IMG/VR virus record: IMGVR_UViG_3300032282_001316
Location: 1 to 31,978 of that record
Reading direction: 5' to 3' (one strand)
DNA length: 31,978 nt
From: a virus
Below, piece after piece: positions 10,489 to 22,472 of this stretch (position 1 is the stretch's first letter; each line of letters opens with the position of its first letter). The translations under genes and the position numbers were made by a program. The notes beneath the pieces were generated by a model. That model was not told where the DNA came from. It saw only the letters and a list, made by a program, of their open reading frames with translations, and did not search any database.

Positions 10489-10651
10489 TGAAGACTGGTT
10501 AATTAACCAATACCAAAAAAGAATTGAGATTTATCAGGAATTGAAAATAAATAACGCTTCAAATCCTAACGAATTAAGAAAGTTAAGAGCTTTAATAATA
10601 GCAACGGAAGAGTTTATAAATGATTTAAAAGATTTAAAAGAAGCAAGATGA
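10478..10651 (+). CDS. 57-aa helical early protein
   Basis: Begins MRYNEDWLINQYQKRIEIYQ; almost entirely helical and charged, two helices with a turn at NNASNPNE. It overlaps the previous gene by 11 bases and the next by 4 (ATGA). Tight packing on both sides supports it as a gene. Function unknown. Confidence 0.55.
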   Translation: MRYNEDWLINQYQKRIEIYQELKINNASNPNELRKLRALIIATEEFINDLKDLKEAR

Positions 10652-11010
10652 GAGTGTTTGAATTACCAGCGAATTACAGAATAATGATGCTTACAGACGA
10701 TGCAAAATATACTAGTCAAGCAATAGCAAGAGTTAAAGAGTTAATCGAAAAATATAAAATTTGTGTTGTTAACCGAAAAAAAGAATTAGTATTTAAACGC
10801 CAATTGATTTGTTGGTATTTGAAAAAGAATACTAAATTAACACTTCAAGAGATAGGCGACATTTGTGGAGGTAAAAATCATGCTACTGTATTACATGCTA
10901 TTAAAAGTATTGACAATTATAAAGGATATAAAGATAAATATTTTACAGAGGTTACGGATGAACTAAATACCGACTTAAAAAATACATTTATTAACGGTAC
11001 TAAATTTTAA
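10648..11010 (+). CDS. Stand-alone DnaA domain IV-like DNA-binding protein
   Basis: 120 aa. Residues about 45-95 match domain IV of DnaA (Bac_DnaA_C): a helix ICWYLKKNTKLTLQEIGDIC, then the signature GGKNHATVLHAIKSI (74-88), equivalent to GGRDHTTVLHA of DnaA. Domain IV binds DnaA boxes in the major groove. The AAA+ ATPase domain III is absent, so this protein can bind but not melt an origin. It might mark the phage origin or compete with host DnaA. A transcription regulator is the alternative. Confidence 0.8.
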   Translation: MRVFELPANYRIMMLTDDAKYTSQAIARVKELIEKYKICVVNRKKELVFKRQLICWYLKKNTKLTLQEIGDICGGKNHATVLHAIKSIDNYKGYKDKYFTEVTDELNTDLKNTFINGTKF

Positions 11011-14574: not shown

Positions 14575-15318
14575 ATGAATAGCTATGAACTTTCTAGAAA
14601 TTGGTTCGATTGGTGTTTCGAGAATCCAGAAAAAATAAATCCAAATCATTCTGCATTATATTTCTTTTGTATTGAACACTGTAATCGTTTAGGATGGAAA
14701 CCTAAATTCGGCTTACCTACTACAATGGCAAAAGAAGCTATTGGAATTAAATCTTATAATACATATTCAAATACTTTAACTGATTTAGTTGAATGGGGCT
14801 TTATCGAAATGTTAGAAAAAAGTAAAAATCAATATTCAGCAAATATAATTGCTCTATCAAATAATGATAAAGCACTTGATAAAGCACTTGATAAAGCATT
14901 AATAAAGCACGCAACAAAGCAAAGTGAAAGCACTAGTGAAAGCATTAGTAGTATAGATAAACAAATAACAATAAACAAAGAACAAGAAACAATTGATTAT
15001 GATAAACTTTTAAAATATATAAATTTAACTTTTGATAAAAAAATTCAAAAAGTAAACGATAAAGCAAAAAAACAATTTAATGCTAGATTAAAAGATTATT
15101 CTAAAGACGTATTTAAAATAGTAATTGATAACCTTAAAAATGACGAATACCATAAAGAAACAAGTTATAAGTTTATTACTCCTGAATACATATCTAGAGA
15201 AAAAACAGTTGAATTACATTCACAAGAAATTAAAACAATAATACCTGATAATTTAACAGAGTACGAAAAGTATATGATTAAATCAACTGGTTTAACTTAC
15301 GAACAACTTAAAGGATGA
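14575..15318 (+). CDS. Replication initiator / replisome organiser
   Basis: 247 aa in two domains. Residues 1 to about 92 look like a winged-helix DNA-binding domain (LSRNWFDWCFENPEKINPNH; TMAKEAIGIKSYNTYSNTL; EWGFIEML). Residues about 140-212 resemble the conserved phage C-terminal domain Phg_2220_C (FNARLKDYSKDVFKIVIDN). The linker 96-135 is low-complexity and its DNA holds seven repeats that look like origin iterons. This is the plan of lambda O: origin inside the initiator gene. The downstream gene, coupled by ATGA, is the helicase it would load. Confidence 0.75.
   Translation: MNSYELSRNWFDWCFENPEKINPNHSALYFFCIEHCNRLGWKPKFGLPTTMAKEAIGIKSYNTYSNTLTDLVEWGFIEMLEKSKNQYSANIIALSNNDKALDKALDKALIKHATKQSESTSESISSIDKQITINKEQETIDYDKLLKYINLTFDKKIQKVNDKAKKQFNARLKDYSKDVFKIVIDNLKNDEYHKETSYKFITPEYISREKTVELHSQEIKTIIPDNLTEYEKYMIKSTGLTYEQLKG
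14869..14949. repeat. Seven AAAGCA iterons, candidate replication origin
   Basis: AAAGCA begins at 14869, 14881, 14893, 14904, 14916, 14927 and 14939: steps of 12, 12, 11, 12, 11 and 12. Most copies continue CT or TT (AAAGCACTTGAT twice). Steps of 11 break the codon frame, so the periodicity belongs to DNA, not protein. An A-rich, easily melted stretch follows at about 14955-15070. Confidence 0.65.
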
Positions 15319-16268
15319 TATTAGCAAAAGGAAGTATTACCGATTATGTTAACAAGGTTAAAAACGGTAAAATAAAAGCAGGACTAGGATTAAACAATGA
15401 TTTTGTAGATGAGTACATTCGTTACAAACAAGGTCAAATGAACATGATTCTAGGATTTGACAACGTAGGTAAGTCTTATTGGTTTCAATGGTATGCTTTA
15501 GCAGTTTCAAGCCACCACGATATTAAATGGACTATATGGATGGGCGAAGATGAAGTAGGCGAAACAATGATTAACTTAATTCAAATGTATTCGGGAAAGA
15601 GATTAAACGAAATGGATGAAAGAGAGTTACAACGAAATATTATTAAAATTGAATATTGGTTTTCTTTTGTTGACCCTAGCAAAATTTACACACCTAGCGA
15701 ACTATTAACGATATTTAAAGAAAGTGATTCAGATGCTTTTTTTATTGACCCTTATACTGGTTTAAAACGTGGTTACGGTTTTAGTGATAACTATGATTTC
15801 TTAAATGAGGTTAGACAATTTTGCAATGATAAGAATAAAACAGTTTATATATCTTTGCACCCAAGTACAGAGAGTGGTCGAAATACTGGATTACACGCTA
15901 AAGGTCATATGTTTGAGGGATATATTAAACCACCAAAGAAAGCAGATGCAGAGGGTGGACAATCATTTGCAAATAGAGCCGATGACTTTTATATAATTCA
16001 TAGATACAATTCACATCCTACACTTTCAACTACTACACAAGTACACGTGGTAAAGAACAAAAGAAATAGAACGGGAGGTAAACCAACTTTAAAAGATAAT
16101 CCAGTTATGTTAGAATTTAATAACGGTTTTGGATTTACTTCTAACGGCATTGAATGTATAGCAAGAAAGAGTTTAGTAACAAAAGAAGAAATAAAACCTT
16201 TGTCAAGTTCAATGAGTGATTTTGAAAAGCCTTTGAAATATGTTAAACCTGATGACACCCCATTCTGA
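15315..16268 (+). CDS. DnaB-like replicative helicase (RecA-type ATPase core only)
   Basis: 317 aa. Walker A GFDNVGKS (47-54), Walker B AFFID (141-145), sensor-like His in ISLHPST (179-185), and a C-terminal segment GGQSFANRADDFYIIHR (214-230) typical of DnaB-family cores. The N-terminal primase-binding domain of DnaB is missing and no primase gene is seen, so the phage probably uses host primase. ATGA overlap with the initiator gene. It would unwind the phage origin. Confidence 0.75.
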   Translation: MILAKGSITDYVNKVKNGKIKAGLGLNNDFVDEYIRYKQGQMNMILGFDNVGKSYWFQWYALAVSSHHDIKWTIWMGEDEVGETMINLIQMYSGKRLNEMDERELQRNIIKIEYWFSFVDPSKIYTPSELLTIFKESDSDAFFIDPYTGLKRGYGFSDNYDFLNEVRQFCNDKNKTVYISLHPSTESGRNTGLHAKGHMFEGYIKPPKKADAEGGQSFANRADDFYIIHRYNSHPTLSTTTQVHVVKNKRNRTGGKPTLKDNPVMLEFNNGFGFTSNGIECIARKSLVTKEEIKPLSSSMSDFEKPLKYVKPDDTPF

Positions 16269-20200: not shown

Positions 20201-20473
20201 ATGGCGGGAAGAGGAGGAGCAATTCCAGGAAATGGTAGAAAGAGCAAAGCAGATGAAGAAAAAGTAAATACTTTATTTGCTAATGCCTTAAAAACATTCT
20301 ATAAAGTAGATACTGAATTTGAAGCAAAAGAAAAATTAGTTCATACATTATTAGAAAGTCAAAGAGGTCAAATATTTATTAGTGAACATCTATTTGGCAA
20401 ACCAAAAGAAACAGTAGACAATAATATTACTTTAAACGATATTAATATTAAAGAGCTTGTTAAGTTTAAATAA
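20201..20473 (+). CDS. Terminase small subunit
   Basis: 90 aa. Starts MAGRGGAIPGNGRKSKADEE, the Gly-rich pattern seen in small terminases of this type, followed by a helical core and SQRGQIFISEHLFGKPKE (53-70). It would bind phage DNA and bring the large subunit to the packaging site. Shorter than many (140 aa or more), without an obvious extra helix-turn-helix. Overlaps the large subunit by 17 bases. Confidence 0.75.
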   Translation: MAGRGGAIPGNGRKSKADEEKVNTLFANALKTFYKVDTEFEAKEKLVHTLLESQRGQIFISEHLFGKPKETVDNNITLNDINIKELVKFK

Positions 20474-22472
20474 GAAGTACATCCCACTATTTGCGAATGA
20501 TTCACGTTACTATGTAATTACGGGTGGTCGAGGTAGTGGGAAATCATTTGGTTTAACCGTATTTTTAGAGCTTCTAACGTACGAAGTAGGACACGTAATA
20601 CTATTTACTAGATATACTTTAACGTCTGCTCACGTTTCAATTATTCCAGAGTTCATAGAAAAGATTGAGTTAGCAGGATTGCAAAACGATTTCTATATTA
20701 CAAAGGATGAGATTATAAATATTAAGACGGGTTCAAAGATATTGTTTAGAGGTATCAAAACAAGTAGTGGAAATCAAACTGCAAATCTTAAATCATTGTC
20801 AGGAGTTACGACTTGGGTACTAGATGAAGCAGAGGAATTAACAGATGAAGATGTATTTGATAAGATTGATTTGTCTATTCGTAGTCAATCAAAACAGAAT
20901 AGAGTTATATTAGTCTTAAATCCTGCAACGAAAGAGCATTTTATTTATCAAAAGTTCTTTGAAGCAAAAGGAGTTGAAGCGGGAAGCAATATTGAAAAAG
21001 GCGACACAACGTTTATTCATACGACTTATGAGGATAATATCGAAAACCTATCAGAAAGTTTCTTAAATCAAATAAAAGACGTAAAGAAACGCAGACCTGA
21101 AAAATATAAACATACTATTTTGGGAGGTTGGTTAGATAAAGCAGAGGGCGTTATCTTCACTAACTGGAGAATAGGCGAGTTTAAAGAAGTTAGTCCAAGT
21201 ATATTTGGGCAAGATTTTGGATTTAGCAACGATCCGACAACGTTAATCGAAACATCTATTGATAGCGCTAATAAAATTATCTACGTAAAACTACATATTT
21301 ATCAAACGCACTTAACTACTTCACAAGTGTACGAACTTAACAAAACATTTGCTAATGATTCATTGATAATTGCTGATTGTGCAGAGCCTAGATTGATAAA
21401 CGAATTACAAGATAGGGGATTGAATATTGAACCTGCAGTAAAGGGAGCGGATTCAGTTCGATTTGGTATTGCATTAATTCAAGATTACGATTTAATAATA
21501 GATGAAAGCAGCATTGATTTAATCAAAGAATTAAATAACTATTGTTGGTTAGAAAAGAAGTCAGAAACTCCGATTGATAAATATAACCACTGCTTTGTAG
21601 GAGAAACAATGATAACAACAAATAAAGGAAATGTTAGAATAGACTCTATAAAAGTTGGTGATTATGTTTTAACAAGTGAGGGATATAAAAAAGTGTTGAA
21701 AACTTTTAATAACGGATTAAAACAAGTTAATAACTACTCGATGCACTTCGATACTTTTTCTTTATCTTTGTGTTCAACAAAAGAGCATAAGATAAAAACC
21801 AATAAAGAATGGAAGAAAGTATCAGAGTTACAGAAAGACAATGTGTTATACCAATACAAATATTCAACGAAAAGGAATATAAATTGTATGATAGTGAAAG
21901 ATATTTTAGTAGAGGCCAAAAGAAACTACATGTTGAAGTGTGGAAGTATTACAAAGGCAGTATACCAAAAGGGTATCATATACACCACGTTGACGGTAAT
22001 ACCCACAATAACAACATTGAAAACCTTAACCTTATTAATGGAAGTTTGCACCTTAGGTATGAAGGTAAAAAAAGGTTTAAAGAAAATCCTGAGTTTGCGA
22101 AATCCTTTCACGCAAAAGGAATTGAAAAAGCAAAAGAGTGGCACAAGTCAGAAGATGGAAGAGAGTGGCATAGACAACACGGTAAACAATTGTGGATTAA
22201 TAAACAGATGTTTAAAAAGAATTGTACGGTATGCGGAAAAGTATACGAAACTCCATTCCCAACAAGAAGTAAATACTGTCATCAAAACTGCAAAGCTAAA
22301 GCACTTAGAAGTAGGAGAAAGTTATCAAGCGAACGTTTATGATATTATGGTAGAAGATTGTCATGAATATTTTGCAAATGGTATATTAGTACACAATTGC
22401 CTAGATGCTTTACGTTATGCGGTTACTTATCAGATAAACGAAAACCAAAATAGCTTGCCATTCATTCGATAA
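20457..22472 (+). CDS. Terminase large subunit interrupted by an intein
   Basis: 671 aa precursor; TTG start at 20457, since no ATG occurs before the conserved region. N-extein 1-378: Walker A GGRGSGKS (23-30), Walker B TTWVLDEAEE (118-127), nuclease Asp253 (GQDFG) and Asp307 (IADCAE). Intein 379-647. C-extein 648-671 begins CLDALRYAVTYQ, giving the third nuclease Asp two residues after the splice point. The spliced enzyme would be 402 aa: the ATPase motor and nuclease that packages phage DNA. Splicing is needed for the nuclease centre, so the intein must work. An HNH gene is nested in another frame. Confidence 0.9.
   Translation: MLSLNKKYIPLFANDSRYYVITGGRGSGKSFGLTVFLELLTYEVGHVILFTRYTLTSAHVSIIPEFIEKIELAGLQNDFYITKDEIINIKTGSKILFRGIKTSSGNQTANLKSLSGVTTWVLDEAEELTDEDVFDKIDLSIRSQSKQNRVILVLNPATKEHFIYQKFFEAKGVEAGSNIEKGDTTFIHTTYEDNIENLSESFLNQIKDVKKRRPEKYKHTILGGWLDKAEGVIFTNWRIGEFKEVSPSIFGQDFGFSNDPTTLIETSIDSANKIIYVKLHIYQTHLTTSQVYELNKTFANDSLIIADCAEPRLINELQDRGLNIEPAVKGADSVRFGIALIQDYDLIIDESSIDLIKELNNYCWLEKKSETPIDKYNHCFVGETMITTNKGNVRIDSIKVGDYVLTSEGYKKVLKTFNNGLKQVNNYSMHFDTFSLSLCSTKEHKIKTNKEWKKVSELQKDNVLYQYKYSTKRNINCMIVKDILVEAKRNYMLKCGSITKAVYQKGIIYTTLTVIPTITTLKTLTLLMEVCTLGMKVKKGLKKILSLRNPFTQKELKKQKSGTSQKMEESGIDNTVNNCGLINRCLKRIVRYAEKYTKLHSQQEVNTVIKTAKLKHLEVGESYQANVYDIMVEDCHEYFANGILVHNCLDALRYAVTYQINENQNSLPFIR
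21591..22397 (+). mobile_element. Intein in the terminase large subunit (269 aa)
   Basis: Starts with Cys1 (CFVGETMITTNKG, block A). Block B is STKEHKI with Thr63 and His66. The C-terminal blocks are VYDIMVEDCHEYFANGILVHN, ending His-Asn, followed by Cys as first C-extein residue. All splicing residues are present. Residues about 85-240 in this frame look like unstructured Thr/Lys/Leu-rich linker, because that DNA encodes an HNH nuclease in another frame. The insertion point, NH|CLDALRYA, is the conserved nuclease motif of terminase, a classic site for inteins. Confidence 0.92.
21809..22342 (+). CDS. HNH homing endonuclease nested out of frame in the intein
   Basis: 177 aa from ATG 21809, in the -1 frame relative to the terminase-intein frame. 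Residues about 20-85 carry KKLHVEVWKYYKGSIPKGYH, then HIHHVDGN and NNNIENLNLINGSLHLR: the HNH core (His59/His60, Asn, His81). A C-terminal zinc finger has Cys139, Cys142, Cys157 and Cys161. It should cut intein-free terminase genes so that repair copies the intein. Stops at 21788 and 21803 close this frame just upstream, so it starts on its own ATG or by frameshift; no clear slippery heptamer was found. The first 20 residues may be dispensable. Confidence 0.85.
   Translation: MEESIRVTERQCVIPIQIFNEKEYKLYDSERYFSRGQKKLHVEVWKYYKGSIPKGYHIHHVDGNTHNNNIENLNLINGSLHLRYEGKKRFKENPEFAKSFHAKGIEKAKEWHKSEDGREWHRQHGKQLWINKQMFKKNCTVCGKVYETPFPTRSKYCHQNCKAKALRSRRKLSSERL

Follow-up and report, generated by a model that had tools for sequence, protein, structure and literature searches.

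A probable replication origin of short iterons inside the initiator gene of a phage of Bacteroidota

The gene for a replication initiator in the viral record IMG/VR IMGVR_UViG_3300032282_001316 carries in its linker a regular array of seven AAAGCA repeats, which is very probably the replication origin of the phage, located within the gene of its own initiator. The window analysed here is the whole record (31,978 nt of viral DNA, positions 1-31,978), which contains a tailed-phage gene set including terminase, an Erf annealing protein, an exonuclease and a helicase. The host is very likely a bacterium of the phylum Bacteroidota, considering that the relatives of the initiator come from Polaribacter, Flavobacterium and Riemerella phages and from Bacteroidota chromosomes. 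Elsewhere in the record the gene of the terminase large subunit (20457-22472) is interrupted by an intein-like Hint region, and a 177-aa HNH-like ORF (21809-22342) lies inside the interrupted gene in another frame. Origins inside initiator genes are textbook knowledge, and the one proposed here is therefore not a new kind; the literature searched contains, however, no description of such short iterons lacking palindromes, of the conserved 12/11 schedule, of the motif flanking the array or of cassettes exchanged across Bacteroidota phages. The features discussed below are collected in Table 1.

Table 1. Positions of the array, its flanks, the initiator gene and the adjoining gene in the window
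Feature	Positions	Strand	Remarks
Initiator gene, 247 aa: N-terminal winged helix, iteron-encoding linker, C-terminal helical domain	14575..15318	+	phrog_428
N-terminal winged-helix domain, residues 1-95, putative iteron binder	14575..14859	+	AlphaFold2, VIA-align
Conserved upstream shoulder, in relatives similar to ATAATTGCYCTATCAAATTTT	14845..14865	+	Raised synonymous conservation, codons 91-97
Iteron 1, AAAGCA	14869..14874	+	Phase 0
Iteron 2, AAAGCA	14881..14886	+	Phase 0
Iteron 3, AAAGCA	14893..14898	+	Phase 0
Iteron 4, AAAGCA	14904..14909	+	Phase 2; lysine codon switched to AAG
Iteron 5, AAAGCA	14916..14921	+	Phase 2
Iteron 6, AAAGCA	14927..14932	+	Phase 1; serine encoded by rare AGC
Iteron 7, AAAGCA	14939..14944	+	Phase 1
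Very unstable DNA adjoining the array, putative unwinding region	14945..15044	+	DNA stability
AT-rich conserved motif AGTATARATAAACA on the immediate 3' side of the array	14950..14963	+	Synonymous sites fixed
C-terminal domain, Phg_2220_C/TIGR02220-like, swappable, putative helicase-recruiting part	14992..15216	+	Weak TIGR02220 match, AlphaFold2
Ring ATPase of the DnaB/primase-helicase type	15315..16268	+	phrog_18375 (E 7e-19), phrog_239 (E 7e-14)

The earlier note had described seven AAAGCA repeats at 11-12 bp steps, and exact copies were indeed found at all seven positions, the steps being 12, 12, 11, 12, 11 and 12 bp (mean 11.67; four of 12 bp and two of 11 bp). As the same note had pointed out, the 11-bp steps shift the codon phase: the two of them take the array through all three phases. 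In phase 2 lysine is encoded by AAG, which is used less than the AAA of phase 0, and in phase 1 the serine codon is AGC, a rare one. The paired pattern has seven matches in the whole window, six of them in the array, against 0.05 in dinucleotide shuffles. In 20,000 redraws of the codons according to the usage of the phage, with the protein held fixed, chains of 11/12-bp steps reached 5 copies at most, against the 7 observed; the joint chance of AAAGCA at all seven sites, given the amino acids and calculated as the product of the site values, is about 2e-6. The array is present once in the 32-kb record.

One could suppose that the repeats are a feature of the protein, i.e. a lysine- and serine-rich linker with a four-residue repeat, of which the DNA repeat is a by-product, as most of the steps are 12 bp long and thus in frame, and repeats of the KAKPKAKP type with three AAAGCA copies do occur elsewhere. 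However, those protein-type repeats stay in one phase while the array crosses all three, AAG and AGC codons are used where the frame requires them, and AAAGCA persists in the relatives while the linker peptide varies, which makes this explanation extremely improbable.

The persistence of the repeats was followed in 140 loci with the N-terminal domain, obtained in two scans of viral contigs and one genome scan. At least two array copies at 11/12-bp steps are present in 99 relatives of distinct sequence, from both phages and Bacteroidota genomes; summed over them, 290 steps are of 12 bp and 151 of 11 bp, and the commonest schedule is 12, 12, 11, 12, 11 (, 12). The earlier note had asked whether the repeats persist while the linker residues change, and this is what these 99 relatives do: the peptides of array keepers read, for instance, KALDKALDKAL, QSTGQSTGQST or KALDKALDKALIKH. 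The linker is QSTGQSTGQSTG in L061, all seven copies of which are in phase 1, QSTYQSTLQSTC in L065, which together with L046 reads QSTxQST/CEST, and KANEKQ in L123, which, like L124 and L146, changes phase at other places. In L064, whose N-terminal domain is 53% identical to that of the window, the core has changed in concert (AAATCA, AGATCA, GAATCA, TATCA, i.e. ARATCA-like) with the schedule unchanged. Linkers without the repeats, which the earlier note had named as a refuting case, were encountered in only a few chromosomal relatives: four Gillisia loci (L054, L058, L060, L062), in which the N-terminal domain is kept and the arrays have decayed, and a truncated Maribacter gene (L066), which is without an array. 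Even so, CAAGCA, AAGGCA, CAATCA, AAAGCA, GAAGCA and AAAGCA still occupy the expected slots in L054. The AAAGCA family holds to the schedule 12, 12, 11, 12, 11, 12 (35 bp for every three repeats) across long distances, and the types with DUF6291, discussed below, keep mostly to strict 11 bp.

Codon choice in the same genes (101 aligned sequences) points in the same direction. Synonymous codon homozygosity above expectation is 0.45 in the 14 iteron codons versus 0.06 in 84 codons of the N-terminal domain (Mann-Whitney p 1.7e-8). The non-iteron codons of the linker are conserved as well (0.41), mainly in the two flanks, i.e. codons 91-97 and AGTATARATAAACA; 87 of 94 relatives have the AGTAT of the latter motif, and the bases after it are nearly fixed. 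The A-rich tract that had been noted after the repeats proved to be an A-rich, unstable stretch directly 3' of them: of all 100-bp windows, 14940-15039 and 14945-15044 belong to the least stable 1%, and the latter ranks fifth among the peaks of instability in the record. The corresponding 3' stretch of 94 relatives is AT-rich too, with a median at the 6th percentile of stability per locus.

As for other possible marks of an origin, GC skew is uninformative for this record because nearly all of its genes are on one strand. Rfam yielded nothing at the locus, and the matches of a promoter scan did not exceed chance. A terminator-like hairpin on the minus strand (14850-14874) overlaps iteron 1. 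Three DnaA boxes were found, below the number expected by chance, and none of them is near the array. A small protein with a DnaA DNA-binding domain (Bac_DnaA_C, E 5e-14) and without the ATPase is encoded at 10648-11010, and a similar 'DnaA protein' is encoded close upstream of the same initiator in Polaribacter Danklef phages; it is possible that this protein acts as a helper or a decoy at the origin.

The initiator itself matches phrog_428, 'replication initiation protein' (E 5e-9), in the PHROG profile search, where the lambda O-like family phrog_345 gave a non-significant E of 0.023; Pfam scans revealed no RepA_N match (PF06970), and a sequence search of the PDB no relative. AlphaFold2 predicts residues 1-95 confidently as a winged helix (pLDDT 80-95). 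When compared using VIA-align, this model resembles winged-helix proteins including RepA_N initiators with Z 9.1-9.9; the RepA_N structures 4pql, 4pt7 and 5kbj (Z 9.1-9.3, rmsd 3.6-4.2 over 105-109 residues) are among the best matches but tied with the winged helices of Fur/Zur and LexA. The C-terminal part matches TIGR02220 weakly and short of the cut-off (E 2e-4), two relatives of this domain passing the Pfam cut-off; it is modelled as a small helical fold (pLDDT 90) for which the PDB offers no match despite the confidence of the model. The ATG of the adjoining helicase gene overlaps the initiator stop codon by four bases (ATGA). Among ten relatives tested, five have a gene for a DnaC-like loader next to the initiator, one a DnaB helicase and one a primase-helicase.

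The array travels with the N-terminal domain and not with the C-terminal one. The 89 complete proteins form a single N-domain cluster and 17 C-terminal clusters, the exchange taking place just past the AGTATARATAAACA motif, while proteins with the C-domain of the window fall into 12 N-terminal clusters. On other N-domains this C-domain is accompanied by other arrays: AACAAA at 11 bp (L030), AACCGAA (L151), AGGGCAAA (L185), TGATACGG (L183, the Riemerella type) and, in Marinitoga MPV1 (L150), AACAGCAC; in many other initiators with it no array was detectable. The Riemerella phages PT33 and GRAP2 are nearly identical in the C-terminal half and differ in both N-domains and repeats. A plasmid collection searched with the N-domain contained no plasmid using it as a replication gene.

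These exchanges raise the question of whether the array is mainly a recombination seam for swapping initiator halves. The C-terminal halves are exchanged just past it, 17 types of them on one N-domain, and recombination joints are marked just 3' of ori in the lambda record. A seam, however, would need neither the fixed 11/12-bp schedule, nor the concerted change of the core in L064, nor the matching of N-domain and repeat type, and we therefore regard this function as very unlikely to be the main one. The swapping of halves more plausibly results from the binder and its site being kept together.

Within the loci studied, which are replication neighbourhoods and not random genes, arrays of this kind proved to be specific for initiator genes. 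From these loci 1,094 ORFs (120 aa or longer) were scanned for near-identical 7-mers, the requirements being a minimum of four copies, 11/12-bp steps and the use of more than one codon phase. Such multi-phase arrays occur in 70 of the 81 ORFs with this N-domain and in 28 of the 55 with DUF6291. Among the 928 unclassified ORFs there were three, all of which turned out on inspection to be initiator genes or their fragments, and none of the other ORFs (about 925) has a frame-shifting array. A gene-blind scan of viral contigs, in which three AAAGCA copies were required, gave a similar picture among the matches listed: 49 of 54 multi-phase arrays of at least four copies lie in the AAAGCA N-domain family, several of the other multi-phase arrays in initiator-like genes (DUF6291 and DUF1376 types), and many ordinary KAxx protein repeats, such as KAKPKAKP, stay in a single codon phase.

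A close relative is protein QQV90525.1 of the Polaribacter phage Danklef, the N-domain of which is 65% identical to that of the window and which has nine AAAGCA copies, as many as L049, on a similar schedule. Unlike the initiator of the window, it has another C-terminal part and is annotated as a 'transcriptional regulator', with neither an initiator nor an origin mentioned; this Danklef_1 protein (L147, 4001-4891, MT732458.1) is probably the replication initiator. The DUF6291 phage proteins have an unrelated N-domain, but their linkers, too, often contain arrays that pass through all three codon phases; here the steps are mostly of exactly 11 bp and the cores AAGCAAA or AACCRAA. A domain search of viral contigs provided 46 distinct usable loci, in 33 of which the array exceeds all codon shuffles, and in 29 of those 33 it occupies more than one phase. 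The DUF6291 loci are L335-L396, to which L151, L216, L270 and L398 can be added. In two cases (L335/L270 and L340) a frame change within the array splits the DUF6291 gene, so that the DNA repeat is kept and the peptide is broken, which is a further argument against a protein feature. On a Bacteroides plasmid, dnaB follows a DUF6291 gene whose array has four copies at 11 bp; a survey of 148 Bacteroidota genomes gave one match to DUF6291. In general, DUF6291 (PF19808) looks like an iteron-binding initiator domain. The literature search, with most subscription journals outside its scope, gave no account of the domain or of the origin in these phages.

We suppose, with moderate confidence, that a more general rule may be at work, namely that in many unrelated phage initiator families the low-complexity linker is an all-frame iteron array with 11-12 bp steps, and the N-domain together with this array forms one mobile cassette moving between helicase-recruiting halves. 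The candidate families, for several of which the rule has support, are the SRNWFD type (that of the window), DUF6291, the LHR type, the DUF1376-like type and the Marinitoga MPV1 type.

The arrangement could alternatively be understood as an operator, by which the initiator or another DNA-binding protein represses transcription or translation of the replication genes, replication starting elsewhere. A winged helix encoded beside its own array is the anatomy of an autorepressor too, and the array is a predicted replication start, recognized from sequence. Yet its place is not at a promoter but within the gene, some 300 bp in, it is followed by a conserved AT-rich motif and then by helicase or loader genes, the same layout recurs in different phage initiator families, and its precedents, the intragenic sites of lambda and pSK41, are origins (PMC7466680, PMC5703833). 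We consider a purely operator function unlikely; autoregulation could coexist with that of an origin.

The comparisons made here establish conservation at the level of DNA, linkage of the array to the N-domain, an AT-rich neighbour and an adjoining helicase or loader gene; the binding of the iterons by the 247-aa initiator and the start of replication at the array are inferred from these. An origin of this structure might operate as follows. The N-terminal winged helix would bind the iterons, one per protomer, side by side, and neighbouring protomers, turned by about 40 degrees, would build a compact O-some-like nucleoprotein complex. This complex may strain the adjoining AT-rich stretch (AGTATARATAAACA and the DNA following it) until it opens. 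The C-terminal domain could then recruit the helicase encoded by the next gene, and the fork would start; in those relatives that have a DnaC-like loader, the latter would bring the host DnaB.

Few phages have a mapped origin, and this applies above all to phages of Bacteroidota; for a widespread family of them our analysis predicts the origin, its binder and the site of unwinding. The signature, i.e. short repeats whose 11-12 bp steps cross codon phases, picked initiator genes and no others among the 1,094 ORFs, and it points to a likely function of proteins that bear the annotations transcriptional regulator, hypothetical or DUF6291. The many swapped pairs of N-domain and array are material for learning which winged helix reads which repeat. 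If the general rule is true, both origins and the code of recognition between initiators and iterons could be read directly from phage sequences.

Among known systems, the RepA_N initiators of pSK41 and pTZ2162 (PMC5703833, PMC7145576) have a winged-helix N-domain and an origin located inside rep between the N- and C-domains, which is also the position of the array in the window. In pSK41 the N-domain of RepA binds boxes in the middle of its own rep gene, the linker peptide being dispensable (PMC5703833), and in the hybrid pPR9 the N-domain and the origin have been swapped, as one block of about 500 bp, for a phage-like one, and the replicon is compatible with pSK41 (PMC5703833, PMC7145576). 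The repeats of RepA_N origins are, in contrast, semi-palindromic, and the window's initiator has no Pfam match to RepA_N, the likeness being one of predicted fold, in which Fur/Zur proteins score equally.

The comparison with lambda, drawn already in the earlier note, holds. The ori/O region of lambda and the O gene of Stx phages (PMC7466680) also have multi-phase iterons inside the initiator gene between the N- and C-terminal parts: the lambda record annotates four O iterons in the linker, at 348, 368, 392 and 415 nt of gene O, and their phases are 0, 2, 2 and 1. In lambda, too, an AT-rich stretch adjoins the iterons and the next replication gene overlaps by four bases, although this gene is P in lambda and the helicase in the window. 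With the repeats persisting while linker residues change and with the lambda layout matching, the sequence evidence supports the origin first suggested in that note. The lambda iterons differ in being four 18-bp units with an internal dyad at steps of 20-24 bp, whereas the window has seven non-palindromic 6-bp cores at 11-12 bp. Considering these differences in period and palindromy, the statement that the array works like lambda ori is supported, and the statement that its initiator is a relative of lambda O is not.
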